Below are positions 671 to 22,805 of a DNA stretch of 53,058 bases, one piece after another. This DNA comes from an uncultured Rivibacter sp. (lineage in GTDB: Bacteria; Pseudomonadota; Gammaproteobacteria; Burkholderiales; Burkholderiaceae). The first letter of the stretch is position 1; each line of letters begins with the position of its first letter. The notes below the pieces were generated by a model. That model saw only the letters and a list, made by a program, of their open reading frames with translations. It did not search any database and was not told the origin of the DNA. The stretch covers positions 1 to 53,058 of the forward strand of contig CAMLLU010000036.1 in the NCBI GenBank assembly GCA_946480925.1, read 5' to 3'. The translations under genes and the position numbers were made by a program.

Positions 671-1942
671 TCAGCGCCGAAAAGACACCTCGGCCGGCCG
701 CCCTGGCAAGTCCAACGCCGCCACAGCGGCCGGTGTTCTCGCGATCACGCGGCCGGCGCGCATCACCATCAGCCGCGTTGCCCGCAGCCTGATGGCCTCC
801 ACCGGGTCGCTCGCCTGCAGCATCACGAGGTCAGCCCTCTTGCCCACTTCGAGACCGTAGCCTTCGAGCCCGAGGATCCGCGCAGGCGTGGTGGTCACTG
901 CCTCGAAGCATTGCCGCATCGCGGCCTGGCTCGTCATCTGCGCCACGTGCAGGCCCATGTGTGCCACCTCCAGCATGTCGGCGCTGCCCAGGCCGTACCA
1001 GGGGTCCATCACGCAGTCGTGGCCGAAGGCCACGTCCACGCCGACGGCCAGCAGTTCGGGCACGCGGGTCATGCCGCGGCGCTTGGGGTAGGTGTCGTGG
1101 CGGCCTTGCAGCGTGATGTTGATGAGCGGGTTGGCGATGGCCGCGACGCCCGCTTCCTTGATGAGCGGCAGCAGCTTCGAGACGTAGTAGTTGTCCATCG
1201 AGTGCATGGACGTGAGGTGCGAGCCCGCCACGCGGCCCTGCAGGCCCAGGCGGTTTGTGTGGAAGGCCAGCGTCTCGATGTGGCGGCTCAGCGGGTCGTC
1301 GCTTTCGTCGCAGTGCATGTCCACCCGCAACCCGCGCTCGGCAGCCAGTTCACATAGCCACTTCACGCTCTCGGCACCTTCGCTCATCGTGCGTTCGAAG
1401 TGCGGGATGCCGCCAATCACGTCGACGCCCATGTCGAGTGCGCGCCTCAGGTTCTCTTTCGCGGCGATAGAACGCAGCACGCCGTCTTGCGGAAAAGCCA
1501 CGAGCTGCAGGTCGAGGTAGGGCTTCACACGCTCGCGCACGTGCAGCAGTGCCTCCACGGCCAGCAGGCGCGGGTCGCACACGTCCACGTGCGAGCGAAT
1601 GGCGAGCAAGCCCTTGGCCACGGCCCAGTCGCAATAGGCCAGCGCCCGCTCGACGATGGCCTCCTGCGTGAGCTGCGGCTTGAGCTCACCCCACAGCGCA
1701 ATGCCTTCGAGCAGCGTGCCGCTCTGGTTGACGCGCGGCAGGCCGTAGCTCAGCGCTGAGTCCATGTGGAAGTGCGCGTCCACGAAGGGCGGCGTCACGA
1801 GCTGGCCGCCGGCTTCGATGACCTGGGCCGCGGGCGCCTGCAATGCCGGCTGCAAGGCCGCGATGCGCCCGGCTTCGATGCCGATTTCGATGTCGCGCCG
1901 CCCATCGGGCAGCGAACAGCCTTTCAGAATGAGGTCCAGCAT
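671..1942 (-). CDS. codA: CodA-family pyrimidine deaminase, predicted 5-methylcytosine deaminase
   Basis: This 423-residue amidohydrolase aligns along its whole length with E. coli cytosine deaminase. Metal ligands are present: the HxH of FVDAHFHMD (His57, His59), His210 in VDMHCDE, and Asp309 in FGHDC; the catalytic Glu213 and His242 are also there. The CodA signature NQSGTL, LVAFPQ, YPKRRG and DPWYxLG segments are retained. The residue after the metal-binding Asp is Cys310, where E. coli CodA has Asp314. CodA homologues lacking that Asp have been shown to deaminate 5-methylcytosine to thymine, so that activity is predicted here; cytosine deamination remains possible. It is the last gene of the URC operon, starting 1 nt after the regulator stops. 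Confidence 0.9.
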   Translation of the reverse strand: MLDLILKGCSLPDGRRDIEIGIEAGRIAALQPALQAPAAQVIEAGGQLVTPPFVDAHFHMDSALSYGLPRVNQSGTLLEGIALWGELKPQLTQEAIVERALAYCDWAVAKGLLAIRSHVDVCDPRLLAVEALLHVRERVKPYLDLQLVAFPQDGVLRSIAAKENLRRALDMGVDVIGGIPHFERTMSEGAESVKWLCELAAERGLRVDMHCDESDDPLSRHIETLAFHTNRLGLQGRVAGSHLTSMHSMDNYYVSKLLPLIKEAGVAAIANPLINITLQGRHDTYPKRRGMTRVPELLAVGVDVAFGHDCVMDPWYGLGSADMLEVAHMGLHVAQMTSQAAMRQCFEAVTTTPARILGLEGYGLEVGKRADLVMLQASDPVEAIRLRATRLMVMRAGRVIARTPAAVAALDLPGRPAEVSFRR

Positions 1943-2745: not shown

Positions 2746-3372
<627 letters not shown>

Positions 3373-3391: not shown

Positions 3392-4644
3392 TCAGAACAC
3401 CGTGCCATCGCTGTCGATGGCCACCGGCGGCGGGCCACCTTCGCGTAGCTGTGCCGCAATGCGCCGGCCGGCAGCCCAGGTGCCGCCTTCGAGCACGCGA
3501 GCGAGCGGGAACTCGGCATCGCCCTTGCCGAGCTGCGCACGCACGGCCGCGGCAATGCGGTCGAGCGCGATCACGGTGACGGCGCGCCATTCGACGATGG
3601 GCTCGTCGGCCACCGTCCAGCGCCTGGAGAAGAAGCTCGCATCGCGCGGCTGCAGCAGGCCCAGGTCGAGCAGCAGGCCGCCATTGCGGTATTCGGGCAG
3701 GCCGGTCAACGCATCCAGCCCCGTCACCACGAGGCCTGCATCCTCCAGCGGCTCGAGCAGCGAATACGTCAACCACTGGGTGAGCTTGTGGAAGGGCACG
3801 AGCCCATCGCGCGCCGCCGGGTGGCGCCAGCAGTCGCCCAGCGACACGCCTTCGAGTTCGATGCGCCCGGGCCACACCGGCCCCAGCGCCCGCAGCAGCG
3901 TGGCCAGCACGAAACCCGCTTCGATGCGGCCTTCCTGCGCATGCAGCTTGACGAAGTCGAGCAGGCGCCCCAGCCGCGCCGGCACGCCAAAGACCACCGG
4001 CGTGGCATGCGCCACTTCGCCCAGGCGGCGCAGCAGTGCGGCACGGCCTTCCACACCCACCAACGGGTTGTCGGCCCGCACCTGGAAAGCCTCGGCCACC
4101 TGCCGTGTGTGCAGATGCGCCAGCGCCGTCGCATCGCTACGGTAGGGCTCATCTGCATGCGCCGAAAAAGCACCCGCGGCAAAGAGCTCCAGGCTCGCCA
4201 CGCCCAGCCCTTCGGAGCGGGTCAGCGTCATGCCATGCCGTGCATCGAGGTAGTGCCATGCCGCGCCGGCACCTGCATCGAGCAGCACGCTGGGAATCAC
4301 CAGGTCGATGCGCGCGCGAGCCCGCTCTTGTGCGTTGGCATCAGCCAGCACATGCGAGGCCAGCCCTGCCCAGCGGTCGACCCCGCCGGCCTCGAAGTGG
4401 CGCCAACGGCTGTGATACGGCACGCGCAGCTCGGGGTACCGCTCGTGCAGCGTATCCACCACGTAGGCCGCAACGGCCTCCACACGATCGCCATGCCAGG
4501 TGAAGTGCGGCGACGCCCCTCGCTCCACATGGGCCATCACCTGCGCGCAACGTTCGCGCACGGCCTCGTCGGTCAGCAAGGCAGAAGCGGGGTGATCTTC
4601 CGGCACTGGCGTGTGCCAGCCTGGAGCGTGCGAATAAGGCAGCT

Positions 4645-4648
<4 letters not shown>
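3392..4648 (-). CDS. URC4/Urg3 family protein (DUF1688)
   Basis: A 418-residue protein of the DUF1688 family. It starts [26 protein letters not shown] and has family-typical segments such as [37 protein letters not shown] and [20 protein letters not shown]4 is needed for uracil use as nitrogen source in Lachancea kluyveri; its reaction is not settled. The start codon overlaps the URC1 stop by 4 nt (ATGA), which shows translational coupling. No signal peptide or membrane segment is seen, so it should be cytoplasmic. A long upstream extension of the same frame runs antisense-like through URC1 and is rejected. Confidence 0.88.
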
Positions 4649-5886
<1,238 letters not shown>

Positions 5887-5900
5887 GGAACCTCCAGAAC

Positions 5901-5916
5901 CTGACCGATTGGTCAA
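5901..5916. promoter_or_regulatory. RutR-type operator
   Basis: Read on the minus strand the site is TTGACCAATCGGTCAG. It matches the E. coli RutR consensus TTGACCAnnTGGTCAA at 12 of 14 defined positions, with one half-site perfect. It ends 14 bp before the URC1 start codon, where a bound repressor would block initiation. A RutR-like regulator is encoded in the same operon. Confidence 0.75.
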
Positions 5917-6045
5917 GTTTCCGCCGCCCAAGCGAGTTGCGTGCCAGCACTTACCCGAGGTCGCGCACCGGTCGCATGAAAAGCAGCACCGTCGCGCAAA
6001 GGCTCGCGGCTATCATTCGCCCGACTTCGCTTGCACGCCCATCGC

Positions 6046-9941: not shown

Positions 9942-10130
9942 CTGGTGTCCTGAGTTGGAAGTTTGTTGATGAATCCTGTCGAGAAACGACCGCATGCGTC
10001 GTTGCGGTGCTCGCGAGGTGTCACACCTCGCTGCGCCCCACGCCTAGCCTGCGGCCGTTTTCGTCAGGATTCGACCGCACACAGTCACCAACCAACGCTT
10101 CTTCAACGAACCTCCAACTCAGGACACCAG
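9942..10130. repeat. 189-bp imperfect palindromic element (MITE/REP-like), copy A
   Basis: The ends are CTGGTGTCCTGAGTTGGAAG and its inverted partner ending CCAACTCAGGACACCAG, with pairing continuing inward (GAATCCTGTCGAGAAACG with GTTTTCGTCAGGATTC). The centre holds CGTCGTTGC, TGCTCGC, a small hairpin AGGTGTCACACCT and CGCCTAG. No open frame lies inside. The right arm overlaps the last codons and stop of the phosphopantetheinyl transferase gene. A related core is present at 23561-23721. Confidence 0.7.
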
Positions 10131-10819
10131 CCGGTCACGCGCCACCACTGCGGTGAAGGCCAGCTCGGCGTTTCACCGCTCCATCTGAGCTCTGCATCGC
10201 CAGGCGCCAGCAGCGCGAGCGTCAATTCGCCGCAACACCACACCCCTGCATTCGCCTCGGTTGACGGGGCACGCTGCGTCTGCACCTGCATCAGCCGCCC
10301 AGGGCTCACGCCCTCTGCATGCCGCTTGAGCCACGCTTCCTTGAGCGTCCAGATGGCGTAGAAGAGTTCCGTGCGGCGGGCGGGCCCGGCCGCTGCAACG
10401 GCTGCCTGCTCGCCTTCGGTGAACACCGCACGAACCAGCCCATCGACATTGCGCCGCGGCCGCGGCGTTTCGATGTCGAGCCCGATGGGCGTTGTGGCTA
10501 CCGCGCAAGCCAGCCAGTCACCGCTGTGGCTCATGGCCAGCTGCAGGGCGCCATGCGGCGGCACCAGCACTCGTGGTGGCCCGTCGATACCTGCCGAGAG
10601 CGGCCAGTCGCGCAACGCCTCGCCGCCGAGTTCATCGGCCAGCAACTGCCGCAGCGCCAGGCGCCCCGCCAAGAACTGAGCGCGCCGGCCCGGCGCCGAC
10701 ATGGCGTCGAGTCTGGCGCGCTCCGCATCGGACAGCCAGCCTTGCCCCGCAGCTTCGGCCTCGGCGGCCGTTCGGGCCACACGGGCCAAGCGCAGCGAGA
10801 TCAAGGCGGCTGGCGTCAC
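10103..10819 (-). CDS. 4'-phosphopantetheinyl transferase superfamily protein
   Basis: A 238-residue Sfp-type enzyme, which moves phosphopantetheine from coenzyme A to the serine of carrier proteins. Key motifs are PHGALQLAMSHSGDWL, IGLDIE (magnesium aspartate and glutamate) and FYAIWTLKEAWLK. It is the last gene of the aryl polyene operon and most likely activates the two ACPs encoded at its other end. Start is a GTG at 10819, just 1 nt past the stop of the preceding gene. The final nine residues, GWCPELEVR, and the stop codon are encoded by the arm of a palindromic element (9942-10130), so the original C-terminus was probably different. Confidence 0.92.
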   Translation of the reverse strand: MTPAALISLRLARVARTAAEAEAAGQGWLSDAERARLDAMSAPGRRAQFLAGRLALRQLLADELGGEALRDWPLSAGIDGPPRVLVPPHGALQLAMSHSGDWLACAVATTPIGLDIETPRPRRNVDGLVRAVFTEGEQAAVAAAGPARRTELFYAIWTLKEAWLKRHAEGVSPGRLMQVQTQRAPSTEANAGVWCCGELTLALLAPGDAELRWSGETPSWPSPQWWRVTGWCPELEVR

Positions 10820-10820
10820 A

Positions 10821-11258
10821 TCACTTGGCGACCTTGGCGTAGGTGCCCTTGAGCGTGACGCCCACGACCATCGCGCCGGCGTGGCACTCGTAGTCGGTGG
10901 GGCTGCTGAAGGCGCCCTTCTTGTAGTAGCTCACCATGTCGACCACGGCATTAGCGCCGAGCGACTTGGCCTTTTCCTGGAAGGCCAGCAGCGCCGACAG
11001 CGCGGCCCACTTGCAGGCGGTCACGTCGTCCTTGTTGAAGCCGTTGGTCTTCTTGTTCGACGTGTCTTCGCCCTTCTTCTCGAGCACCTTCGGAGTCTTG
11101 GCGCCGGCCAGGTAGAAGGTCACCGAGCCGTCGAGCTTGCCTTGTGCTTCGGGCATGGCCAGCACTTCTGCCAGCGGCAGATGCAGTTCCGTGTCGCGCG
11201 CCATCGCGGGAGCGGCCAGCACGCCGGCGAGCAGGGCCAGCACCAGGGTCTTCTTCAT
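10821..11258 (-). CDS. Small exported APE-associated protein (often named excinuclease ATPase subunit)
   Basis: A 145-residue protein with a clear signal peptide (MKKTLVLALLAGVLAAPAMA). The mature part contains LDGSVTFYLAGAKTP, two cysteines (DDVTACKWA and DYECHAG) that could form a disulfide, and GANAVVDMVSYYKKGAFSSPTDYECHAGAMVVGVTLKG. The last segment resembles the heavy-metal-binding/YbjQ-like small fold (GANAVV..., V.GTAV). Relatives are often labelled excinuclease ATPase subunit, which the sequence does not support: there is no Walker motif. It lies between the terminal ketosynthase and the phosphopantetheinyl transferase in the operon; role unknown. Confidence 0.75.
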   Translation of the reverse strand: MKKTLVLALLAGVLAAPAMARDTELHLPLAEVLAMPEAQGKLDGSVTFYLAGAKTPKVLEKKGEDTSNKKTNGFNKDDVTACKWAALSALLAFQEKAKSLGANAVVDMVSYYKKGAFSSPTDYECHAGAMVVGVTLKGTYAKVAK

Positions 11259-11288
11259 GTGTCGTTCTCCTTCTCTCTGGTTGAAAAA

Positions 11289-12533
11289 TCAGTCGCTGCT
11301 GCCCCACCGGCGGAAGATCAACGACGTGTTGATGCCGCCGAAGGCGAAGTTGTTGCTCATCACGATGTCGGTCTGCAGCTCGCGCCCCGTACCGGTGATG
11401 TAGTCGAGCGGTGCGCAGCGCGGGTCGGGCGTTTGCAGGTTGACGTTGGGTGCGAACCAGCCCTCGCGCATCATTTCGATGGTGAGCCAGGCTTCGAGCG
11501 CGCCGCAAGCCCCTAACGTGTGGCCCATGTAGCTCTTGAGCGACGAGATCGGCACACGACTGCCCAGCACCTGCAGCGTCGCGGCGGACTCGGCGATGTC
11601 GCCCTGTTCGGTGGCCGTGCCATGGGCGTTGACGTAGCCGATGGCCTCGGGCGGCAGGTTCGCATCGGCCAGCGCCAGGCGCATGGCCTGGGCCATGGTT
11701 TCCGATTGCGGGTGCGTCACGTGCGCACCGTCGCTGTTGGTGCCCCAGCCCAGCAGCTCGGCATGGATGCGTGCACCGCGAGCCTTGGCATGCTCGAGTT
11801 CTTCGAGCACCAGCGTGCACGCGCCTTCGCCCAGCACCAGGCCGTCGCGGTCGGCATCGAAAGGCCGCGGCGTCAGTTCCGGCTGATCGTTCTTCACGCT
11901 GGTGGCGAACAAGGTGTCGAATACCGCCGCCTCGATGGCGTCGAGCTCCTCGGCGCCACCGGCCAGCATGGCGACCTGCTTGCCGCCCTGAATGGCCTCG
12001 AACGCGTAGCCGATGCCCTGGCTGCCGGAGGTGCAGGCGCTCGACGCAGTGACGATGCGCCCCGTGATGCCGAAGAACACGCCGATGTTCACCGCCGCCG
12101 TGTGCGACATCATCTTGATGTAGGTGTTGGCGGTGATGCCCTCGGTGGTCTTCTCGGTGATCATGCGGCCGAAATCGCCGATGGCCGCGGGGGTGCCCGC
12201 CGACGAACCGTAGGAGATGCCCATGCGCCCGCTCTTGACGAGCGGGTCGCCCAGAAGCCCCGCGTCGATGAGCGCGAGCTCGCTGGCGCGCGTGCCCATC
12301 AGCGCCACGCGGCCCATGCTGCGCGTGGTCTTGCGGTTGTAGTGCGCGGGCAGCTCGAACGGCCGGGCCTGCGCGCCCAGCCGCGTGTTGAGGCCGTCGT
12401 AGGCATCCCACTCGGCGATGCGCTGCACGACGTTGCGGCCGCTCTTCAACTGCTCGCGCGCCGTCGGCCAGTCGTGCCCCAGCGGGCTGATCGCGCCGAA
12501 GCCCGTGACCACCACTCGTTTCAACGACCTCAT
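11289..12533 (-). CDS. apeR: Beta-ketoacyl-ACP synthase (ApeR-type)
   Basis: A 414-residue FabF-like ketosynthase. The active-site cysteine is Cys167 in SSACTSGS; the two histidines are in NAHGTAT and MGHTLGACG, so the condensing triad is complete. In the E. coli APE pathway the equivalent enzyme works beside the ApeO/ApeC pair. It follows the ketoreductase gene with a 4-nt overlap. Full family length, no oddities. Confidence 0.92.
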   Translation of the reverse strand: MRSLKRVVVTGFGAISPLGHDWPTAREQLKSGRNVVQRIAEWDAYDGLNTRLGAQARPFELPAHYNRKTTRSMGRVALMGTRASELALIDAGLLGDPLVKSGRMGISYGSSAGTPAAIGDFGRMITEKTTEGITANTYIKMMSHTAAVNIGVFFGITGRIVTASSACTSGSQGIGYAFEAIQGGKQVAMLAGGAEELDAIEAAVFDTLFATSVKNDQPELTPRPFDADRDGLVLGEGACTLVLEELEHAKARGARIHAELLGWGTNSDGAHVTHPQSETMAQAMRLALADANLPPEAIGYVNAHGTATEQGDIAESAATLQVLGSRVPISSLKSYMGHTLGACGALEAWLTIEMMREGWFAPNVNLQTPDPRCAPLDYITGTGRELQTDIVMSNNFAFGGINTSLIFRRWGSSD

Positions 12534-13276
12534 CCGATCATTCCTCCGTTCACGGAGATGACCTGGCGCGTGATGTAGCCCGCGTCCGGCCCCATCAGGA
12601 ACGCCACCAGCGCCGCCACTTCCTCAGGTTTGCCCATGCGGCGCAACGGAATGATCTTCATGGCCTCCTCCAGCACTTCGGGAGCGACCATCTCGGTGTC
12701 GATGAGGCCCGGTGCGACGCAATTGACGGTGATCTCGCGCTTGGCCAGCTCGATGGCCAGCGCCTTGGTCGCGCCAATGATGCCAGCCTTGGCAGCGCTG
12801 TAGTTCGTCTGGCCGCGGTTGCCCATGAGCCCCGACACCGACGCCAGCGTGACGATGCGCCCCGGCTTGCGACGCCGCACCATCGGCATCACCAGCGGGT
12901 TCAGCACGTTGTAGAAGGCGTCGAGGTTGGTGTGGATGACGCTGTCCCATTCTTCGCCGGTCATCGCCGGGAAGGCGTTGTCGCGCGCGATGCCGGCGTT
13001 GCACACCACGCCGTAGTAGGCACCGTGCGCTTCCACGTCGGCCAGCAGGGTGTCGCTGGCCGCGGCGCGATCGGCCACGTCGAACATCAGCACGCGGGCT
13101 GTGCGGCCGAGCGCGCGGATCTCGGAAACCACCGCTTCGGCCTCGGCCGTGCCACGCCGGCCGTGCACGACGATGTCGTGGCCGTCATGCGCCAGGCGCA
13201 GCGCGATGGCGCGGCCGATGCCGCGGGTGGAGCCGGTGACCAGGACCGTGTGTGATGGTGGTTGGAGCGTCGTCAT
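12530..13276 (-). CDS. apeQ: 3-ketoacyl-ACP reductase (ApeQ, FabG-like)
   Basis: A 248-residue classical short-chain dehydrogenase that reduces the beta-keto group in each polyene elongation cycle with NADPH. Motifs: VTGSTRGIGRAIA (cofactor loop), CNAGIARDN, catalytic Ser in LASVSGLMG, Tyr and Lys in YSAAKAG, and the C-terminal GYITRQVISVNGGMIG. It overlaps the downstream ketosynthase by 4 nt and sits 19 nt after the dehydratase gene, in the same order as E. coli apeP-apeQ-apeR. Confidence 0.93.
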   Translation of the reverse strand: MTTLQPPSHTVLVTGSTRGIGRAIALRLAHDGHDIVVHGRRGTAEAEAVVSEIRALGRTARVLMFDVADRAAASDTLLADVEAHGAYYGVVCNAGIARDNAFPAMTGEEWDSVIHTNLDAFYNVLNPLVMPMVRRRKPGRIVTLASVSGLMGNRGQTNYSAAKAGIIGATKALAIELAKREITVNCVAPGLIDTEMVAPEVLEEAMKIIPLRRMGKPEEVAALVAFLMGPDAGYITRQVISVNGGMIG

Positions 13277-13295
13277 GTCGGTACTGCCGGAACGT

Positions 13296-13784
13296 TCATG
13301 GGGTGATGGTCATGCTGGGATTGCCACTGCCAGCCGGAGGCTCGAACACCGACACCATCGCCTCGGCGAATTGCTCCCCCGTGACCGCGTCGCTGATGCG
13401 GCAGGCGAACTGGCCCAGCCCGTTGTCGCCTATCAGCTCGCAGCGGGCGGTGATACGCAGCTTCTGCCCGAAGACGAACGCGGGTTGCGTGATGCTGTAG
13501 CGCCGGCTGCCCAGCAGGAAGCCGATGCCGGGTTCGTGGCCGGCGCGGCGTGCCCGGGCACCGGCCCAGGCCGCAATGGCCTGGGCCATGTATTCGATGC
13601 CCACCCAGGCTGGCACGCCGTCGTCGCGTGCAAACAGGGAGGCCGGCGTGATGTCCACCTCGGCCTGTGCCTCTTCGGCATTCACCGCGATGAGCCGGCT
13701 GAGCAGGCTCATCGTGCGGCGGTGGGGCACGAAATGCTCGACACCTTGCGGCGCCGGCAGCGTGGAGGGTTCGACGTTCGTCAT
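13296..13784 (-). CDS. apeP: Hotdog-fold 3-hydroxyacyl-ACP dehydratase (ApeP)
   Basis: A 162-residue hotdog protein: HFVPHRRTMSLLSRL is the strand carrying the likely catalytic histidine, and VPAWVGIEYMAQAIAAWAG is the central helix. In E. coli APE synthesis ApeP pairs with ApeI to dehydrate polyene intermediates; here the ApeI-like domain is fused to the ligase at 23721-25412. The start ATG at 13784 was chosen because an earlier in-frame start (13826) would run into the upstream ketosynthase gene. Confidence 0.87.
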   Translation of the reverse strand: MTNVEPSTLPAPQGVEHFVPHRRTMSLLSRLIAVNAEEAQAEVDITPASLFARDDGVPAWVGIEYMAQAIAAWAGARARRAGHEPGIGFLLGSRRYSITQPAFVFGQKLRITARCELIGDNGLGQFACRISDAVTGEQFAEAMVSVFEPPAGSGNPSMTITP

Positions 13785-13797
13785 GGCAGCGGCCCCT

Positions 13798-14988
13798 TCA
13801 CCCGCGCGCGAACAGCAGCGCGGCATTGCTGCCGCCGAAGGCGAACGAGTTGCTCAACACGTATTCGGGCGCACGGCCGAGCGATTCGCCCGGCGGCACC
13901 ACGCGCAGCGCCGGCATGCTTGCATCGCGCACGCCGTCCCACCAATGCGGCGGCAACTGGCCCTGGGGGTTGTCCACCAGCGTCATCCACGCGATGGCCG
14001 CCTCCACCGCACCGGCCGCTGCCAGCGCATGGCCGGTGAGCGGCTTGGTCGAGCTCACCGGCACGTCGAGCCCGAACACGTCGGCGATCGCCAGGCTTTC
14101 CATCGCGTCGTTGTGCGGCGTGGCGGTGCCGTGCAGGTTCACGTAGTCCACCACGGCGGGCGCAACACCGGCGCGCTGCAGGGCCTGCCGCATCGCGTCG
14201 ATGGCGCCTCGGCCGCTGGGCTCGGGGGCAGACATGTGGTGGGCGTCGGAGGTTTCGCCCCAGCCGGCCAGCCGCAGCGGGCCGGGCTCGCGCGTCATCA
14301 GGAACAGTGCCGCGCCTTCACCGATGTTGATGCCTTCGCGGTTCGCCGACAGCGGGTTGCAGCGCGACGCCGTCACCGCTTCGAGTGCCGAGAAGCCGGC
14401 GATGGTGAAGGCGCACAACGCGTCCACGCCGCCAGCCACCACGGCGTCGACGATGCCGGCGCGCAGCAGCCGCGCACCCGAGGCCATGGCCTTGGCGCCC
14501 GCAGAGCAGGCAGTGGAGATGGCATGGGCCGGGCCGCACACGCCCAGCTCGCGTGCCACGAAGGCGGCGCAGTTGCCCATCTCCTGCTGCGCGTAGTGAT
14601 ATTCGGGCGGGAAGTCGCCTTGCACCAGCAGGCGGCGTGCGGCCCGCTCGCCTTCTTCCACACCACCGGTGCTCGTGCCCAGCACCACGGCCACGCGCTG
14701 TGGACCGAAGCGGGCGATCGCCGCGTCCACTTGCGGCCGCATTTCGGCCAGCGCCGCGGCCAGCAGCGCGTTGTTGCGGCTGCGTTGCTGCAGCGGCGCA
14801 TGCGCCAGCGAAGGCAGTTCGCCTTCGGGCAGGCACCCCAGGTGCAGCACGCGCCCGGGCGTGTAGCGATCGGTCGGCGCCACGCCGAGCGGTTGCTGCG
14901 AGGCGAACAGCTGCTCGCGCATGGCCGCCGCGCCGTGGCCCAGCGAGCACAGCACACCCATCGCATTGAGGTAGATCGCGGCCGTCAT
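13798..14988 (-). CDS. apeO: Beta-ketoacyl-ACP synthase (ApeO-type)
   Basis: A 396-residue ketosynthase with a complete triad: Cys161 in STACSAGA, His in NLHGTAT and His in LTGHALAAAG. In E. coli the ApeO enzyme forms a heterodimer with the chain-length-factor-like ApeC, whose homologue begins this operon (27326-28087). The ATG at 14988 overlaps the stop of the DUF3261 gene by 4 nt, which fixes the start; the longer reading frame is ignored. Confidence 0.9.
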   Translation of the reverse strand: MTAAIYLNAMGVLCSLGHGAAAMREQLFASQQPLGVAPTDRYTPGRVLHLGCLPEGELPSLAHAPLQQRSRNNALLAAALAEMRPQVDAAIARFGPQRVAVVLGTSTGGVEEGERAARRLLVQGDFPPEYHYAQQEMGNCAAFVARELGVCGPAHAISTACSAGAKAMASGARLLRAGIVDAVVAGGVDALCAFTIAGFSALEAVTASRCNPLSANREGINIGEGAALFLMTREPGPLRLAGWGETSDAHHMSAPEPSGRGAIDAMRQALQRAGVAPAVVDYVNLHGTATPHNDAMESLAIADVFGLDVPVSSTKPLTGHALAAAGAVEAAIAWMTLVDNPQGQLPPHWWDGVRDASMPALRVVPPGESLGRAPEYVLSNSFAFGGSNAALLFARG

Positions 14989-15554
14989 GTAGCGCCTCCG
15001 AGGGGACGCGAGTCGATGCTGAGCCGGTAGCCGTCGCGCAGGTTCACGAGTTCGGCGTGGGTCGCGCTCGTGTAGTTCACGGTGGCCACCACGGTGTCTT
15101 GCCGGCGCAGCACGCGCTCCTTGTCGCTTGCATCGAGCGTCCAGCCGCCGGGCAATGCCGCACTGATGGCTGGCGCAGGCCACAGTACCAGCTGCAGGTC
15201 AGAGAGGATGCGCTCGCCCTTCACCGCCGCGGGCCACCACGATGCACGGCTTTCGGTGAGCTTTTGGCCGTCCCACTCGAGCCGCGCCACGGTCTGGCCG
15301 AGGTTCATGAGCGCCAGGCGCACGCTGTCGGCATCGGCTTCCAGGATCACGTCGAGCCGGTGCGTCTGCCCGCGCGCAGCCACGGTGAGCTGCTGCCGCA
15401 GCGCCAGCGTGCGGCCCAGCGATGCCGGCGCCAGCCGCAGCAGCGGCGAGTCCGGCTCGTTGGCGGTGGGCGTGGGGGCCGACGCACAACCGGTGATGAA
15501 AGGCGTGGCCGCCGCCAGCAGCAGCGCCAGCGCGCAGCGGCGCAGGAGCTTCAC
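14985..15554 (-). CDS. apeN: DUF3261 lipoprotein (ApeN-like)
   Basis: A 189-residue lipoprotein. The signal sequence ends in the lipobox ITGC (Cys23), so it should be anchored in the outer membrane after processing. The rest (LRQQLTVAARGQTHRLDVILEADADSVRLALMNLGQTVARLEWDG) has the alternating strands of a LolB-like fold, which fits a role with the LolA-like protein in moving the lipid-linked pigment across the periplasm. The start is a GTG at 15554, seven nt after GGAGG-type sequence and overlapping the previous gene by 4 nt. Confidence 0.82.
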   Translation of the reverse strand: MKLLRRCALALLLAAATPFITGCASAPTPTANEPDSPLLRLAPASLGRTLALRQQLTVAARGQTHRLDVILEADADSVRLALMNLGQTVARLEWDGQKLTESRASWWPAAVKGERILSDLQLVLWPAPAISAALPGGWTLDASDKERVLRRQDTVVATVNYTSATHAELVNLRDGYRLSIDSRPLGGAT

Positions 15555-16780
15555 GAACACAGCTCCTCCAGCACCGTCAGCCGGCGCTTGGCTTCCGCGA
15601 CGTAGGGGTTGTTGCCGTCCCAGGCGTAGCCCGCCAGGATGGAAGAGATCATGCGGCGGATCTCGGGCGTGTGGCGCTCGTGGAAGATGATCTTCTGGAA
15701 GCCGCCCGCATACCAGGCCTCGACGAAGGCGCGGAAGGTGTCCACGCCGGCCTTCAGCGGCACGGCGTAGTCCTGCTGCCAGTCCACCGTTTCGCCGGCG
15801 AATTGGCGCTCGATGCAGGCAGTGGCGAGGCTGGCTGACTTGAAGGCGATGGTCACGCCGCTGGAGAACACCGGGTCGAGGAACTCGCCTGCGTTGCCCA
15901 GCAGCGCATAGCCCTGGCCCCACAGCGATCTCACGTTGGCCGCATAGCCCACGATCTGGCGGGCCGGCGTGTCCCACACTGCGTCTTTCAGCAGCGTCGA
16001 AAGGCCCGGGTCTTCACCCACCAGCGTGCGCAGCCGGTCGGTTTCGCTGCCCTGGTACTGCGACAGGAACTCGGTGTGCGCCACCACGCCGAGCGAGCAG
16101 CGGCCGTTGGAGAATGGAATGGTCCAGTACCACACGTGCGGGAACCTGGGGTGCACCGTCACGCGGATCTTGTTGCGGTCGAAGGTGCCGGGCGGCACGT
16201 TGTCCTGCACGTGCGTGAAGATGGCGCCGCGCGCGGGGAAGTCCGACGGCGTTTCCAGCTTGAGCAGGCGCGGCAGGATGCGACCGAAGCCGCTCGCGTC
16301 GAGCAGGAAGCGGGCTTGCACCGCGTAGGTCTCGCCCTCGGGCGACTTCACCATGACGCGCGGGCACTCGCCGTCGCTCACGTCGACTTCGACCACCTCG
16401 TGGCGATAGCGCACCTGCGCACCGGCACGTTCGGCGGCGTCGGCCAGCACCTTGTCGAAGCTGGCACGCTGCACCTGGAAGGTGGTGCCCCAGCCGGGCG
16501 AGAACTTCTCGCGGAAGTCGAAATCGGTGTAACGGTCGCCCCATGCGAAGGCGGCTCCGTTCTTGTACTGGAAGCCGGCTTCGATGACGTCGCGCAGCAT
16601 GCCGGCGGCCTCGACGTATTCCATGCTCTGCGGCAGCAGGCTCTCGCCGATGGAAAAGCGAGGAAACTGCTCGCGCTCGAGGATGAGCACCTCGCGGCCC
16701 TGCTTGCGCAACAGCCCCGCAGCCACGGAGCCTGCCGGGCCCGCGCCGACGATGAGGATTTCGGTGTTTTCAGTGCGCAT
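15551..16780 (-). CDS. FAD-dependent oxidoreductase of the tryptophan halogenase-like group
   Basis: A 409-residue flavoprotein with ILIVGAGPAGSVAAGLL at the N-terminus, FSIGESLLPQSMEYV, and YALLGNAGEFLDPVFSSGVTIAFKSA for the FAD diphosphate. The segment WYWTIPFSNGRCSLGV recalls the WxWxIP motif of flavin-dependent halogenases and relatives, but the halogenase lysine cannot be confirmed by eye. Related genes occur in many aryl polyene and flexirubin clusters, where they may modify the aryl head group or the chain; it has no counterpart in the E. coli ape set. It lies between the MMPL exporter and the lipoprotein gene. Confidence 0.85.
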   Translation of the reverse strand: MRTENTEILIVGAGPAGSVAAGLLRKQGREVLILEREQFPRFSIGESLLPQSMEYVEAAGMLRDVIEAGFQYKNGAAFAWGDRYTDFDFREKFSPGWGTTFQVQRASFDKVLADAAERAGAQVRYRHEVVEVDVSDGECPRVMVKSPEGETYAVQARFLLDASGFGRILPRLLKLETPSDFPARGAIFTHVQDNVPPGTFDRNKIRVTVHPRFPHVWYWTIPFSNGRCSLGVVAHTEFLSQYQGSETDRLRTLVGEDPGLSTLLKDAVWDTPARQIVGYAANVRSLWGQGYALLGNAGEFLDPVFSSGVTIAFKSASLATACIERQFAGETVDWQQDYAVPLKAGVDTFRAFVEAWYAGGFQKIIFHERHTPEIRRMISSILAGYAWDGNNPYVAEAKRRLTVLEELCS

Positions 16781-16795
16781 GATGGAAAGCCAGGG

Positions 16796-19162
16796 TTACT
16801 GATGACGAGATGCAGGGGTGGCGGATCGCGGCACGAGGCATGGCGCGAGCAATGAAACGAAGGCCAGGCCGAACAGCAGCGTGAGCCCGAAGGCGCGCAA
16901 TGCCGGTGTGCTGGACAGGCCCAGCAGCCCGAAGGCCAGCCAGGTGCTGCCGGCACCCAGTGCCACGGCGAGCCAGGCCGAGCCGTCGCCGGCGTGTTCG
17001 AGCAGGAAGATGCCGTAGTCGGAGCCCACGCCCAGCAGCAGAAGCAGCGCCAGCACGGTGAACAGCTGCAAGGGCTGGCCGATGGCGCCCAGCACGGCCA
17101 GGGCTCCAACGGATGCCAGCGCGGTGGGCAACCAGGCGCGCCAGGCCGCACGGCCGAAGCGCCACCACAACACGGCCAGCACCACCGCATGGCCCAGCAG
17201 CAGCAGCCAGCTCATCGACACGCGGTAGCGGCCCAGCAGCGAGGAGATCTCGGCCGGCTTGTCGACCCAGCGCACGCCTTCGAGGCCTTGCGCGGCATGG
17301 GCCAGTTGCGGCAGCAGCGTTGCATCGTGCAGGCCGCGCAGCATCACGACACTGGTTTGCGCGCCCTCGACGTCGCCGAGCCACAGGGCACGCGCCGCGG
17401 TGGAGACCGGGTGCTCGAGCCAGCGCGGCACGGTGAGCGGTTCGGTGGCGAAGGCCGGGCGCGCCAGCGATTCGTGCAGCGCGGCGTTCACGCCAGCCAG
17501 CACCTCGGTTTCGACACGTGCGGTGAGCGCGGCATCGGCACGCTGGCGCTGCAGCGACGGCACCCAGTCCGACACGGCGCTGTAGCCGGCCAGCCGGCCT
17601 TCGCGCACCAACACATCGAGCCGGCTCTTGAGCGCCTCTTCACGCTGCAGCACCTCTTCGGCGCCGGCACCGCGCACCAGATAGAACTGGGCCGGGCTCG
17701 CCACACCGAGCAGGCTGCTCAGCTGGCGCTGCGAGGCCAGCAGCCCGGGCGGCGAGTTCTGCAGTTGCCGCACGTCGTCGTTGCTGCGCAGTTGCAGCAG
17801 GCCGAGGCCGCACAGCACCGCCACCGCGGCGTACGCAGCGCAGGCCTTGGGCGACATGGCCAGGCGCGGCCAACGCGCCAGGCTGGAGGCGATGGCCACC
17901 GCGAAACGGCTGCTGCCGACCGCACCCCGGTCGAGCCACGGGAACCAGCACACCACGGTCAGCATGGCGGCCAGCAGACCCACCGACGAGAACACCGCCA
18001 TCTGGCGCAGGCCAGGGAACGGCGCGATGCCCAGGGCCATGTAGGCCAGCACGCTGGTGGCCAGCGCCAGCAGCAGGCCCGGCAGCAGCTGTCGCATCAG
18101 GCTGCGAGGCTGCGCCCATGGCTGGCCCTGGCGGCTGGCGAAGTAGTGGATGCCGTAGTCTTCAGCCACCCCTACCAGGCTGGCACCGAACACCAGCGTG
18201 ATGAGGTGCACCTGGCCGAACAGCCATGCTGTGACCGACAGCGCCGCGGCACAGCCCACCAGCAGCGACAAGGCGACCAGCACGATGGGCATCGGCGAGC
18301 GGAACGCCAGCCATACGAGCAGCAGCACCGCCGCCAGCGAGCCCCAGCCGATGGTATTGATCTCGCGGCTGGCCTGCACCGCGGCCGCCTCGGCATGCAG
18401 CGGCACGCCGGCCTTCAGCAGCTGCACGGCCGGCACGGCGTTCCGGGCGGCGCTTTCGGCCGCCTGCAGTGCGCTGCCGTAGACGGCATTGCCGTCGAGG
18501 CTGAAAGCGGAGCCGGCGATCTCGTAGCGCAGCACCACCCATTCCTTGCCATCGCCTGCAAGCCACAGCTGGCCGTCGCGCGGGCGGGCACGGGTGTCGC
18601 CGGCGCGGGCGCTCCACCATGCCGTCGAAAGACCCAGCGGATCGGCCACCCAGGCCGACAGGCGGGCTTGGGCGGCCGGCTGGTACAGCGCGGCAAGGGC
18701 GGCCTGCGTGAGTTGTGCGACCTGCGTGTTCTGCAGTTGCTCGCGCTGGGCCGGCGTGAGCAGGCGGTCGCGCCAGGGCTGGTAGAAGGCCAGGGCCTCG
18801 GCGGCGCCGGCCGAGTCGCCCCAGTGGCTTTCGGACAGCGGCGCCTTCGCGGCTGCGAGGCTGGCACGCCAGGCTTCGGCGGCACGCTGCGCGTCGGCCC
18901 ACTGCGGCGCGCCGAGCATGACGACGATCTGGCGCGACGCACGATCGGCCAGCACGCGCGTGGCCACGCCGACCTCGGGCGCTTGTTCATCAGCCGGCAG
19001 CAGCGCGAGCACGTCGGCATCGAGCCGATCCTGCTGCCAGAAGCACCACTGGTGCGCACCCACCACCAGCACGAACAGCAGCCACAGCAACGCAGCGGCG
19101 GCCCACAGCCGGCCGCCGGTTTCGCGGGCAGCCTGTGCGTGCGGTGGTACTGCGAAGCTCAC
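16796..19162 (-). CDS. apeM: MMPL/RND family exporter (ApeM)
   Basis: A 788-residue membrane protein with an initial helix (residues about 20-40), a large periplasmic domain, then two repeats of membrane segments, including GWGSLAAVLLLVWLAFRSPMPIVLVALSLLVGCAAAL and, near the C-terminus, LQLFTVLALLLLLGVGSDYGIFLLEH. The GVAEDYGIHYF and GVGSDYGIFLL segments are the repeated motif of RND/MMPL proteins that couple proton flow to lipid export. In APE clusters this is taken to be the exporter of the acylated polyene. The GTG start at 19162 lies 9 nt after the LolA-like stop. It is longer than many MmpL-like hits because it is the full duplicated form. Confidence 0.88.
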   Translation of the reverse strand: MSFAVPPHAQAARETGGRLWAAAALLWLLFVLVVGAHQWCFWQQDRLDADVLALLPADEQAPEVGVATRVLADRASRQIVVMLGAPQWADAQRAAEAWRASLAAAKAPLSESHWGDSAGAAEALAFYQPWRDRLLTPAQREQLQNTQVAQLTQAALAALYQPAAQARLSAWVADPLGLSTAWWSARAGDTRARPRDGQLWLAGDGKEWVVLRYEIAGSAFSLDGNAVYGSALQAAESAARNAVPAVQLLKAGVPLHAEAAAVQASREINTIGWGSLAAVLLLVWLAFRSPMPIVLVALSLLVGCAAALSVTAWLFGQVHLITLVFGASLVGVAEDYGIHYFASRQGQPWAQPRSLMRQLLPGLLLALATSVLAYMALGIAPFPGLRQMAVFSSVGLLAAMLTVVCWFPWLDRGAVGSSRFAVAIASSLARWPRLAMSPKACAAYAAVAVLCGLGLLQLRSNDDVRQLQNSPPGLLASQRQLSSLLGVASPAQFYLVRGAGAEEVLQREEALKSRLDVLVREGRLAGYSAVSDWVPSLQRQRADAALTARVETEVLAGVNAALHESLARPAFATEPLTVPRWLEHPVSTAARALWLGDVEGAQTSVVMLRGLHDATLLPQLAHAAQGLEGVRWVDKPAEISSLLGRYRVSMSWLLLLGHAVVLAVLWWRFGRAAWRAWLPTALASVGALAVLGAIGQPLQLFTVLALLLLLGVGSDYGIFLLEHAGDGSAWLAVALGAGSTWLAFGLLGLSSTPALRAFGLTLLFGLAFVSLLAPCLVPRSATPASRHQ

Positions 19163-19171
19163 GGTCAGGGC

Positions 19172-19807
19172 CTAGTCAAAACGTGCAGCCTCTTCGCGCG
19201 TCAGCGCCTGGGCGGTGGCCTGCTCGCTGAAGCGAATGACGCTGCTGTCACCCTGCGCCTCGGTGAGCTGCACGCTGCGTACGAAACGGTCGCCTTCGAG
19301 CTCCACGCGCGTGAGCCATTGGGCAAGCGCGGCATCACGTGGCACGAGCGCCAGGCGCCAGCCGCTACTGCCCAGTAGTTCACCGTCGATGTGAAAGCGC
19401 GCGGAAAGCGTCTGCAGGTCGGCCGCCATCAGTGCGAACAGCATCTCGTTCACGGCACGCAGGCCGGGCTCGTCACGCGCTTCGACCTTGGTATCCACGC
19501 GGCCGTCGGCCTGGCGCGAGAGCAGGCGGTCGCGCGTGACCACTAGCGACGACTCGAACGGCTCGCGCGTGTGCCAGACCACGCCGCGCTCTTTGGCCAC
19601 GACAAAGTCGCCTCGCGACACCAGCGGGTTCTTGAAGCCCTTGAGCGTCTTGCGCTGCTCGAAGCGGCCGCGCATCACCGGCGCGTCGGCCAGGCGCTGG
19701 CGCACCTGCGCCACCAGCGGCGACACCGGCTCGGCGGCGCCAAGCGGCAAGGCCGCTGCCAGCAGACACCCCGCGGCAAAGCTCCGGCGCGAGAGCATCG
19801 ACGTCAC
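19172..19807 (-). CDS. apeL: LolA-like outer membrane lipoprotein carrier (ApeL)
   Basis: About 211 residues with a signal peptide (SFAAGCLLAAALPLGAAEP), then a LolA-like core: MRGRFEQRKTLKGFKNPLVSRGDFVVAKERGVVWHTREPFES. It is a diverged paralogue of the housekeeping lolA at 33872-34480 and probably carries the lipid-linked pigment through the periplasm. Start choice: a GTG at 19807 overlaps the thioesterase stop (GTGA) and is seven nt after GGGAG; an ATG three codons downstream (19798) is the alternative. Confidence 0.83.
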   Translation of the reverse strand: MTSMLSRRSFAAGCLLAAALPLGAAEPVSPLVAQVRQRLADAPVMRGRFEQRKTLKGFKNPLVSRGDFVVAKERGVVWHTREPFESSLVVTRDRLLSRQADGRVDTKVEARDEPGLRAVNEMLFALMAADLQTLSARFHIDGELLGSSGWRLALVPRDAALAQWLTRVELEGDRFVRSVQLTEAQGDSSVIRFSEQATAQALTREEAARFD

Positions 19808-20220
19808 GGCGTGACTCCCAGCTTCTGCCACAGCACTTCTGGGCAGACGAAACACATCTCCCGGGTGGCGATGTCCACCGCCACCTGGATGGTGTAGGCG
19901 GTGTTGACCTTGGCGCCGGTGGCCGCATCGCGAATGAGGTATTCGATGCGCAGCCGGTTCTCCCACTCCACGATCTGTGCACGCACCTTCAGCGGCTGGC
20001 CATAGGCGGCCGGCTTCACGTACTTGAGCCGCATGTCGACGATGGGCCAGGCATAGCCCGACGCGCGCATCTGCGGATAGTCGTAGCCGTACTTCGCCAG
20101 CAACGCGCTGCGCGCCATCTCGAGGTACTTGACGTAATGGCCGTGCCAGACAATCTCCATCACGTCGATGTCGAAGAACGCCGGCGTGACTTCGATCTCG
20201 TGGCTGAGGTCAGGCTTCAT
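19804..20220 (-). CDS. apeK: Acyl-CoA/ACP thioesterase, YbgC/4-HBT-like (ApeK)
   Basis: A 138-residue hotdog thioesterase: FFDIDVMEIVWHGHYVKYLEMARSALL corresponds to the YbgC active-site region (Asp with following HxxYxxYxExAR), and PIVDMRLKYVKPAAYGQPL to its second strand. It may release or edit the polyene thioester. The ATG at 20220 overlaps the ammonia-lyase gene by 11 nt. A longer in-frame start at 20283 lies wholly inside that gene and is not used. Confidence 0.85.
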   Translation of the reverse strand: MKPDLSHEIEVTPAFFDIDVMEIVWHGHYVKYLEMARSALLAKYGYDYPQMRASGYAWPIVDMRLKYVKPAAYGQPLKVRAQIVEWENRLRIEYLIRDAATGAKVNTAYTIQVAVDIATREMCFVCPEVLWQKLGVTP

Positions 20221-21763
20221 GCAGGCTCCAGGCACGCTCGCGCAGCGCGACGAGCAGCGACTGCAGGTCGACGTCGAGCGCACGGTCTTCGACCACCAGC
20301 GCGATGCGGTCTTCGAGGTCGGCCTGGAAGGCCGTGAGCGCAGGGCTCAGGGCCAGCTGCGCATCGAGGTTGCGGCGCAGCGCCAGGCCCTGGCGGGCGG
20401 CGATCAGCATCGCAGCCACCACCTGTTCGGTGAGCTCGAGCACGCGCAGGCAGTCGCGCGCGGCGATGGTGCCCATGCTCACCTTGTCCTGGTTGTGGCA
20501 CTCGGTGGAGCGCGAGAACACCGAGGCCGGCATCGTGAGCTTCAGCGCCTCGGCGGTCCATGCCGACACACTGATCTGCAGCGCCTTCAGGCCGTGGTTG
20601 ATGGCGCCGCGCGGGCCCGTGGCGCCCGACAGGTTGGACGGCAGGCCGTGGTTGTAGCGCGTGTCCACCAGCAGCGCGAGTTGGCGGTCCAGCAGGTCGG
20701 CCACGTTGGCCACGGCGTTCTTGAGCCCGTCCATCGCGAAGGCGATGTGGCCGCCGTAGAAGTGGCCGCCATGCAGCACCTGCTCGCGTTCGCCGTCGAT
20801 GATGGGGTTGTCGTTGGCGCTGTTGAGCTCGTTTTCGATGAGCGTGCGGAAGAACGGCAGCGTGTCTTCGAGCACGCCGATCACGTGCGGCGCGCAGCGC
20901 AACGAATAGCGGTCTTGCAGGCGCTGCTCGTTGCGGGCGGGACGCTCGCTGGCGAGGTCGGCGCGCAGGCGGGCTGCCACGCGCTGCTGGCCGGCATGCG
21001 GCTTCACGGCGAACAGCGCCTCGTCGAAGTGGTGGGCGTTGCCGGCGCTGGCCAGCACGTTGCAGGCAGTGAGGCGCGTGGCCAGGCGCGACACGTATTC
21101 GGCACGCTGCCAGGCCAGGCAGGCCAGCGCCGTCATCACGGCGGTGCCGTTCATGATGGCCAGGCCTTCCTTGGGCCGCAGCTTCAGCGGCGTGATGCCC
21201 AGTTGCGCCAGCACGTCGCGCGCGGCACGGCGTTCACCACGGAACCACACGTCGCGCTCGCCGCACAGCACGGCGGCCACGTAAGACAGCGGCGTGAGGT
21301 CGCCGCTCGCGCCGACCGAACCTTCGGCCGGAATGAGCGGCAGCACGTCGTGCACAAGGAGGTGTTCGAGCTGTTCGAGCAGGGCCACGCTCACGCCCGA
21401 CACGCCTTGCGACAGCGATGACAGCCGCGCAGCCAGCACGGCGCGCGTCTCTTCAGACGCAAGGAAGCGACCGGCACCGCAGCCGTGGTAGGTGTAGAGA
21501 TGGTGCGGCAGCTCCGTCACCAGCTCGGGCGGAATGACGACCGTGCACGAGTCGCCATAGCCGGTGGTGACGCCGTAGACCACACCGTCTTCGCGCAGCA
21601 GGCGGTCCAGAAAGTCAGCGCCGCGCGCAATGCGTTCGCGAAACGCCGGCTCGGGCGACAGCTCGGCCACGGCACGACGCTCGGCGAGCGCGGCCACGTC
21701 TTCGATCGACAGCGGGCTGCCGTCGAAACGCACGCGCGGCAGGTCAGTGTGAAGTTCTTTCAT
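20210..21763 (-). CDS. MIO-type aromatic amino acid ammonia-lyase (HAL/TAL family)
   Basis: A 517-residue lyase with the MIO-forming Ala152-Ser153-Gly154 in GSVGASGDLTPLSY, YGVTTGYG at residues 63-70, and the later NDNPII and GHFYGGHIAFAMD segments. In flexirubin and some APE clusters such a lyase makes coumarate or cinnamate as the aryl starter for the adenylating ligase. The selectivity loop reads YTYHGCGAG; aligned with Pseudomonas HAL (LSHAAGVG) its histidine is kept (His93), and the HL pair of Rhodobacter TAL is not present at that place, so histidine versus tyrosine specificity is open. Start ATG at 21763; overlaps the acyltransferase by 20 nt. Confidence 0.88.
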   Translation of the reverse strand: MKELHTDLPRVRFDGSPLSIEDVAALAERRAVAELSPEPAFRERIARGADFLDRLLREDGVVYGVTTGYGDSCTVVIPPELVTELPHHLYTYHGCGAGRFLASEETRAVLAARLSSLSQGVSGVSVALLEQLEHLLVHDVLPLIPAEGSVGASGDLTPLSYVAAVLCGERDVWFRGERRAARDVLAQLGITPLKLRPKEGLAIMNGTAVMTALACLAWQRAEYVSRLATRLTACNVLASAGNAHHFDEALFAVKPHAGQQRVAARLRADLASERPARNEQRLQDRYSLRCAPHVIGVLEDTLPFFRTLIENELNSANDNPIIDGEREQVLHGGHFYGGHIAFAMDGLKNAVANVADLLDRQLALLVDTRYNHGLPSNLSGATGPRGAINHGLKALQISVSAWTAEALKLTMPASVFSRSTECHNQDKVSMGTIAARDCLRVLELTEQVVAAMLIAARQGLALRRNLDAQLALSPALTAFQADLEDRIALVVEDRALDVDLQSLLVALRERAWSLHEA

Positions 21764-22805
21764 GGTGTGCGATCGCATTCGGGTCAGCCTCGGTGGGCCG
21801 CTCCCAGAACGAAAAGAAGTTGAACCATTCGTAAGGCGCGCGCTGCAGCAGGGCTTCGAGCCGCTGCGCGAACACCGCTGCGTACCGCTGCAACGCCGCT
21901 TCGCGCCGCCCGCGTGGCAGCTCCACGCGCTCACTCAGGCACTCGAAGTACACCGCATGTCCACGGCCCTCACGCACGCAGCCCATCAGATACACAGGGC
22001 ACTTCAGCAATGAGGCAAGCACATACGGGCCGACGGGAAACGCCGCCAGCGCACCGAGGAACTGCGCGCTGGTGGTCTTGCTGGCCACCACCGGCACGCG
22101 GTCACCTGCGATGGCGACGAACTCACCCTGGGCCACCTTCTCGGCCAGCATCACCGCGGTGGCGGCGCTGACCTCGGTGACCTGTATCAGGCGCACGCCG
22201 CAATCGGGATCGAGCCGACGCAGCACGCGATTGAATTGTTCCGCATGCGCGGTGTGCACCAGCACGTTGAGCTTGAGCCCGGGCTGGCGCTCGGCCGTGG
22301 CCTGGCACAGCTCCAGGCAACCGACGTGCGCGGTGACGAACACGCCGCCCTGCCCTTGCTCGATCCGCCGCACCACGGGCTCACGCCCCACGAAGCGCAC
22401 GTGCTCGAAGCGGTAGCGCCCGCTCAATGCGAGCGTCTTGTCGAGAATGGTTTCGGCGAACGAGAAGAAGTGCCGCAACGTGTGGCGCCAGCCCGGCTGC
22501 ACGCCGATGACGCCGTGTTGCGACTCCATGCGCCGCAGGTAGTCGAGCGACGCACGGCGCGCACGGCCCTGCGTGGCCCAGTAGTACAGCACCACGGGGT
22601 AGACGCACAGCCTGAAGGGCAGCCGGCCCAAGAGCTTGTGGATCCAGTAGAGGAGCCACATGCCCGCGACGAAGGTGCTTTCGCCGATGTGGGCCCAATG
22701 CTTCGCGTCAGCCCCCCGATCGCCGGGTACGGCGGTCGATGCTTCGCGAGGGGTTGGCCTTGCCTGGGGCGGCCCGGCGCGGCGGCCGGTGGCGTCTTGG
22801 CTCAT
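21744..22805 (-). CDS. LpxL/HtrB-type acyltransferase
   Basis: A 353-residue lysophospholipid-type acyltransferase. FSFAETILDKTLALSGRYRFEHVRF and GQGGVFVTAHVGCLELCQ give the HxxxxE motif region of the LpxL family; IAGDRVPVVASKTTSAQFLGALAAFPVGPYVLASLLKCPVYLMGC is its conserved second half. Together with the adjoining glycosyltransferase it corresponds to the GT/acyltransferase functions thought to link the aryl polyene to a lipid anchor. The ATG at 22805 overlaps the glycosyltransferase stop by 4 nt. Residues about 5-38 are Arg/Pro/Ala-rich and unlike the rest (see findings). Confidence 0.87.
   Translation of the reverse strand: MSQDATGRRAGPPQARPTPREASTAVPGDRGADAKHWAHIGESTFVAGMWLLYWIHKLLGRLPFRLCVYPVVLYYWATQGRARRASLDYLRRMESQHGVIGVQPGWRHTLRHFFSFAETILDKTLALSGRYRFEHVRFVGREPVVRRIEQGQGGVFVTAHVGCLELCQATAERQPGLKLNVLVHTAHAEQFNRVLRRLDPDCGVRLIQVTEVSAATAVMLAEKVAQGEFVAIAGDRVPVVASKTTSAQFLGALAAFPVGPYVLASLLKCPVYLMGCVREGRGHAVYFECLSERVELPRGRREAALQRYAAVFAQRLEALLQRAPYEWFNFFSFWERPTEADPNAIAHHERTSH

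Follow-up and report, generated by a model that had tools for sequence, protein, structure and literature searches.

A CodA-type deaminase gene closes a run of uracil-catabolism genes

The window, by which we mean the whole 53,058-nucleotide stretch of DNA that was analyzed, carries a co-directional run of five genes, read from 5931 to 671 in the order URC1-URC4-upp-rutR-like-deaminase (Table 1). These genes are separated by gaps of 71, 19, 139, and 1 bases, the last of which lies between the stop codon of the rutR-like gene and the deaminase start. URC1, URC4, and a uracil phosphoribosyltransferase (UPRT) are encoded together as a URC cluster, and a relative of the URC4 product in Azospirillum is annotated URC4/urg3. 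The regulator scored below the RutR equivalog cut-off of 368 bits and is designated RutR-like only. The adjoining URC1, URC4, and UPRT homologues resemble the URC pathway of Lachancea kluyveri (URC1, URC4, and URC6; PMC7530994), whereas the bacterial cluster of the window adds the RutR-like regulator and the deaminase. URC1, URC4, and URC6 are described in the main text of PMC7530994, where the word thymine is absent.

Profile searches with NCBIfam placed the deaminase in the family NF005748 with 814.7 bits, over the threshold for membership, and gave it 430.2 bits on the E. coli CodA family NF006685, below the cut-off of 483. The protein has the Pfam domains Amidohydro_3 and Amidohydro_1 and is 42-43% identical to E. 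coli CodA.

Table 1. Coordinates of the genes and the residue considered here (window positions, except for the last row)
Feature	Position	Strand	Profile match or remark
CodA-type deaminase, 423 aa	671..1942	-	Best NCBIfam family NF005748 (PRK07572, cytosine deaminase)
Cys310 codon, TGC	1013..1015	-	Counterpart of E. coli CodA Asp314
RutR-like TetR regulator, 220 aa	1944..2606	-	TIGR03613 (RutR), 193 bits; Pfam TetR_C_3
upp, uracil phosphoribosyltransferase (URC6 equivalent), 208 aa, counted from the chosen ATG	2746..3372	-	NF001097, 285.3 bits, and TIGR01091, 272.7 bits, both over cut-off; Pfam UPRTase
URC4 (DUF1688), 393 aa, counted from the chosen start	3392..4573	-	PF07958, 482 bits
URC1-type GTP cyclohydrolase II homologue, 428 aa from the listed TTG; a later ATG is the likelier start	4645..5931	-	NF005536, 775.7 bits (cut-off 403); Pfam GTP_CH_N, GTP_cyclohydro2
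CodA homologue of C. sphaeroides	L104:8236-9504	-	NF005748, 753.9 bits

Cysteine replaces Asp314 of CodA in an otherwise intact active site

To examine the status of the active site, the window deaminase, whose motif is AFGHDCVMDPWYGL, was aligned to the solved E. coli CodA; Cys310 falls opposite Asp314 with no gap. The same alignment listing contains the CodA entries PDB 1r9x, 1r9y, and 1r9z, which carry Gly, Ala, and Ser, respectively, at position 314. Twenty metal, catalytic, or pocket positions of CodA, including H61, H63, L81, F154, Q156, H214, E217, H246, D313, and W319, were then compared, and the window enzyme was identical to CodA at 19 of the 20, position 314 being the sole mismatch. 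Retained in it are the metal ligands His61, His63, His214, and Asp313 and the catalytic residues Gln156, Glu217, and His246 (CodA numbering). The roles of these residues are in part described in PMC12828455 and PMC6186785. An earlier note on this DNA had placed a Cys at the CodA Asp314 position within 1009-1020 and had stated that all metal and catalytic residues remain, and both statements were borne out, the Cys codon lying inside that interval. The note had written the motif as FGHDC-VMDPWY; its Cys is correct, but the hyphen corresponds to no gap in the alignment. Thus, as judged by its family, Cys310, the intact catalytic set, and the clade described below, the window protein is a predicted metal-dependent CodA-type cytosine deaminase. 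It shares with E. coli CodA (PDB 1K6W) all compared catalytic and metal residues; CodA differs from it in having Asp314, and the CodA gene has codB as its partner and lacks URC genes.

The residue that precedes the metal-binding Asp, at CodA position 312 (residue 308 of the window enzyme), was also read. Both CodA and the window enzyme have His here, and the Cereibacter sphaeroides and Klebsiella enzymes have Gln. Among alignment rows with more than 300 aligned residues, with one distant Asn row left out and duplicates kept, this position held Gln in 72, His in 57, Ser in 2, and Ala in 1 of 132 Cys-type rows; Gln in 13, Glu in 2, and His in 1 of 16 Ser-type rows; and His in 13 and Glu in 1 of 14 Asp-type rows, none of which had Gln. 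Gln at 312 and loss of Asp314 thus often coincide, whereas the window enzyme shows only the loss of Asp314, and this is the main reason in the sequence for caution about 5-methylcytosine (5mC). The Klebsiella enzyme Kpn00632 (PDB 4R7W, 4R85, and 4R88) likewise belongs to the CodA family, keeps the catalytic set, and has lost Asp314, but it has Gln-Asp-Ser where the window enzyme has His-Asp-Cys; its Ser is counted as residue 315 in PMC6186785.

Cysteine is the commonest residue at this position in a Pseudomonadota sample

A protein search listed 120 homologues from at least 8000 scored candidates. All 120, the window's own protein (P0001) among them, carry the Cys: 112 match the Cys motif and the remaining 8 were read as Cys by eye. 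Cys310 being common to the other 119 listed homologues, a recent substitution in the window genome was rejected. At 133 loci of 64-85% identity, some of which represent the same gene twice, the Cys codon was TGC in 122 and TGT in 11, indicating that the amino acid is held while its codon varies.

To sample the family independently of similarity to the window, 299 evenly drawn Pseudomonadota genomes were searched with the E. coli CodA family. Fifty-seven of them gave matches at E <= 1e-90, and all 57 sequences were read. Position 314 was Cys in 32, Ser in 14, and Asp in 11; leaving out the centre genome G002, which had been picked as a carrier and is one of the 32, Cys still accounted for 31 of 56. 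Asp, the residue of the textbook enzyme, is therefore in the minority in this Pseudomonadota sample, and Cys is the commonest state. A large clade normally carries Cys, which is no local oddity.

Furthermore, NF005748 matches over the cut-off occurred in 58 of 149 genomes of the family that contains Sinirhodobacter ferrireducens (G001, itself a carrier). Among the matches listed for these 149 genomes none scored between 215 and 569 bits, and the Cys group therefore looks like the only CodA-type enzyme in that family. E. coli CodA itself exceeds the NF005748 cut-off of 438 bits, with 490.9 bits; the cut-off was accordingly rejected as a means of sorting Cys from Asp enzymes, because it is the best family, and not the cut-off, that separates the two groups. 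Cys and Asp enzymes were sorted by best tblastn match together with the residue. E. coli also accounts for the single control genome over this cut-off, for which C. glutamicum had been considered and was rejected.

The window enzyme groups with the Cereibacter sphaeroides enzyme

Two trees were built, each rooted at the midpoint only. The first was a quick maximum-likelihood tree of 159 rows, from which 5 identical rows had been dropped, with the Cys column included and long rows flagged. All 128 Cys rows, including that of the window, formed one clade (SH-aLRT 93) with one label change, and the Ser and Asp rows, some of them on long branches, lay on the other side. For the second tree, of 155 rows, columns 312-314 and the four longest rows (L100, L135, L136, and L098) were removed; the Cys rows again fell on one side of one branch, with support of 100. 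Row L100, from Hymenobacter, is a distant amidohydrolase (32% identity) that has Asn at the position and gave a better score with the window enzyme than with CodA; it was left out of the Cys clade count, and in the first tree it was the only outgroup row. By path, the row closest to the window deaminase was Caldimonas caldifontis; by identity, it was an Achromobacter enzyme (85%). A close plasmid relative of Klebsiella Kpn00632 (L001), 39-41% identical to the window enzyme, lay on the CodA side of the tree.

The genome of the CHARACTERISED (Cereibacter / Rhodobacter sphaeroides) relative, G054, was identified by a DNA match of 100% over 2974 bases to a plasmid named as that of C. sphaeroides, the runner-up among 394 genomes giving 75% over part. 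Searching G054 with E. coli CodA yielded exactly one CodA homologue, a Cys enzyme with the motif GWGQDCVLDPWY. Since it is the sole CodA homologue in a genome identified as C. sphaeroides, this gene is almost certainly that of Rsp0341. Its product is 67% identical to the window enzyme, has the same best NCBIfam family and Cys at CodA 314, and matches at 18 of the 20 positions compared with CodA. The two differ in that the C. sphaeroides enzyme has Gln at position 312 and falls in another part of the Cys clade, a sub-clade of 91 rows drawn mainly from Alphaproteobacteria (support 98, first tree), whereas the window deaminase is among the other 37 Cys rows (support 99, second tree).

Hitchcock et al. 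reportedly described in 2014 three 5mC deaminases, Kpn00632, Rsp0341, and NCgl0075, with values of about 1.4e5, 2.9e4, and 1.1e3 per M per s, respectively, on 5mC. Because the Cys clade includes the C. sphaeroides enzyme, almost certainly this Rsp0341, the window enzyme likely accepts 5mC and 5-fluorocytosine (5FC). The prediction in the earlier note withstands the clade test that it had set, since the window deaminase groups with the C. sphaeroides enzyme and away from the Asp enzymes. The note's further statement that homologues without the Asp deaminate 5mC efficiently goes too far if taken generally, the three published enzymes reportedly being about 100-fold apart on 5mC.

Conversely, Cys might take over the role of Asp in the sub-clade of the window, which would make the enzyme specific for cytosine and leave 5mC unused. 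The His at position 312, the separation of the window enzyme from the C. sphaeroides sub-clade, and the fact that the titles and abstract openings of a limited literature search reported no assay of a Betaproteobacterial Cys enzyme agree with such a specificity. It is nevertheless quite improbable, given that both trees group the window enzyme with Cys and not Asp enzymes and that the other compared positions are identical to those of CodA. In addition, according to PMC6186785, E. coli CodA is essentially unable to use 5mC, and its Asp-to-Ala variant, which lacks the Asp, gains 5mC activity.

Genes beside the deaminase in related genomes

The neighbourhood was scanned at the best 80 of 593 confirmed genome loci. 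The full set of URC1, URC4, upp, and a RutR-like gene stood beside the deaminase at 9 of the 80 (five Cupriavidus, one Zoogloea, one Caldimonas, one Thiomonas, and one proteobacterial MAG), and no such set was present in the fetched flank of the other 71. At three of the nine (L042, L046, and L084), the deaminase directly follows the regulator, as it does in the window. In Azospirillum, URC4 and upp are followed in one consecutive series by a BMP-type ABC transporter and the deaminase gene.

Another arrangement was more frequent. At least three of the four genes of a BMP-family ABC transporter (substrate-binding protein, ATPase, and two permeases) were present at 52 of 71 loci (L013-L087; flank of at least 6.5 kb), and also at the C. 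sphaeroides locus, where a four-gene transporter of this type precedes the deaminase gene and where the window has URC genes instead. The transporter that accompanies the Cys deaminase is a candidate importer of cytosine or other pyrimidines. The transporter-deaminase operons of Sinorhizobium meliloti and Rhizobium sp. BT04 contain an inserted "amidase" gene (L095:3061-4476 and L096:3054-4466).

As 46 of these 52 transporter loci were without URC genes in the fetched stretch, and as some homologues are named cytosine/creatinine deaminase in one source, the main substrate might instead be another N-heterocycle, such as creatinine, isocytosine, or a modified pyrimidine, imported by the BMP-type transporter. 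Such a substrate is, however, highly improbable for the window enzyme. Its CodA catalytic set is intact, including Q156 and E217; several Betaproteobacteria have the deaminase gene in one cluster with URC1, URC4, and upp, and Azospirillum has it together with URC4 and upp; and no BMP-type transporter was found beside the window deaminase gene.

The Cys enzyme accompanies either of two routes of pyrimidine breakdown

Among 120 Burkholderiales genomes, the deaminase was found in 7 (one by a partial match), URC4 in 5, and both in 3, and in all three genomes holding both the two genes lay within 6 kb of each other (hypergeometric p 0.0012 for the overlap). Without the centre genome G002, a chosen carrier, the counts became 6, 4, and 2 of 119 genomes, with p 0.012.

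URC4 and PreA, the dihydropyrimidine dehydrogenase of the reductive pathway, were then searched for in 38 genomes. Thirty-six of these have the Cys enzyme (the 32 Cys genomes of the Pseudomonadota sample, another three from Burkholderiales, and G054), and two had been included as URC4-only. URC4 was present in 8 of the 36 and PreA in 24, leaving 4 with neither and none with both (Fisher p 1.6e-5; 6e-5 without G002 and G054); these co-occurrence p-values and those for Burkholderiales overstate independence, because many of the Cys genomes are close kin. C. sphaeroides is on the PreA side, with URC4 absent. None of the 8 URC4-bearing Cys-enzyme genomes had a PreA match at E 1e-30, and reductive degradation of thymine was therefore not seen there. 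Of the 8, 4 had URC4 within 7 kb of the deaminase, 1 had it 17 kb away, and 3 had it on a separate contig; PreA was within 10 kb of the deaminase in 2 of 24 genomes. One of the two URC4-only genomes was without a PreA match and the other had one below the cut-off (213.9 versus 335 bits). Across all 38 genomes, 10 had URC4 without PreA over the cut-off, 24 had PreA without URC4, and 4 had neither. Since 32 of the 36 Cys-enzyme genomes carry URC4 or PreA and none carries both, these two alternative routes each link the Cys enzyme to uracil catabolism.

These data bear on whether the window enzyme is a dedicated 5mC deaminase, in which Cys would have been selected for the use of 5mC derived from methylated DNA or RNA, with thymine as the main product. 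The presence of Cys in each listed homologue and each clade row counted, the efficient use of 5mC reported for the C. sphaeroides relative (presumed to be Rsp0341), and the sensing of both uracil and thymine by E. coli RutR would all fit such a function. We consider it unlikely. The gene cluster leads to uracil breakdown via UPRT, and UPRT, the entry enzyme of the URC route, takes uracil and is not known to take thymine. The reductive route can degrade thymine too, but PreA was not found in the URC4-bearing genomes at the threshold used. Moreover, because the same Cys is kept in URC4 and PreA settings alike, thymine breakdown is unlikely to be what keeps it.

The prediction of a 5mC deaminase in the earlier note therefore stands in part: the enzyme is without the Asp that bars 5mC in CodA and belongs to the Cys clade of the C. 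sphaeroides enzyme, but a specific 5mC enzyme is not what the evidence favors. Recycling of 5mC as the function, which the note had proposed, is not supported, given the frequency of the Cys, the uracil-catabolism neighbours, and retention of the Cys with either route. As for the thymine that the note expected beside a uracil gene set, the chemistry holds, and the setting argues against 5mC as the main substrate and not for it.

Predicted role of the window deaminase

With a probability of roughly three in four, the window gene encodes a cytosine deaminase that feeds uracil catabolism and is permissive at C5, rather than a dedicated 5mC recycler. Database names alone do not establish that function: in PMC12828455, two CodA-cluster proteins annotated as cytosine deaminase behaved unlike CodA in assays, one being AtzC-like and the other converting a single compound. 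In the scheme that we propose from the gene content, the deaminase would convert cytosine to uracil, Upp would convert uracil to UMP, and URC1 and URC4 would break down UMP with release of nitrogen. Cys in place of Asp beside the metal-binding Asp would give a pocket that tolerates a substituent at C5, so that 5mC and 5FC would also be deaminated, as in the C. sphaeroides relative; this would represent a broadened range of a catabolic cytosine deaminase.

If such activity holds clade-wide, over half of the sampled Pseudomonadota CodA-family deaminases (32 of 57) could make thymine from 5mC and activate 5FC, and E. coli CodA would be an unrepresentative model of the bacterial "cytosine deaminase". 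The exclusive pairing with URC or reductive pyrimidine breakdown offers a simple test of the purpose of the Cys enzyme. A further extension, which we regard as doubtful, is that the Cys-clade enzymes act on both cytosine and 5mC and that, in organisms with the URC route, the deaminase together with the RutR-like regulator makes up a branch salvaging thymine from 5mC while uracil is burnt.

Elsewhere in the window, ten ORFs were scanned at 10103-21934, two of which were without a Pfam match. This region is a probable aryl-polyene or related pigment cluster, with genes for a phosphopantetheinyl transferase, two ketosynthases, a ketoreductase, an ApeP-like dehydratase, an FAD/halogenase-like protein, and an aromatic amino acid lyase.
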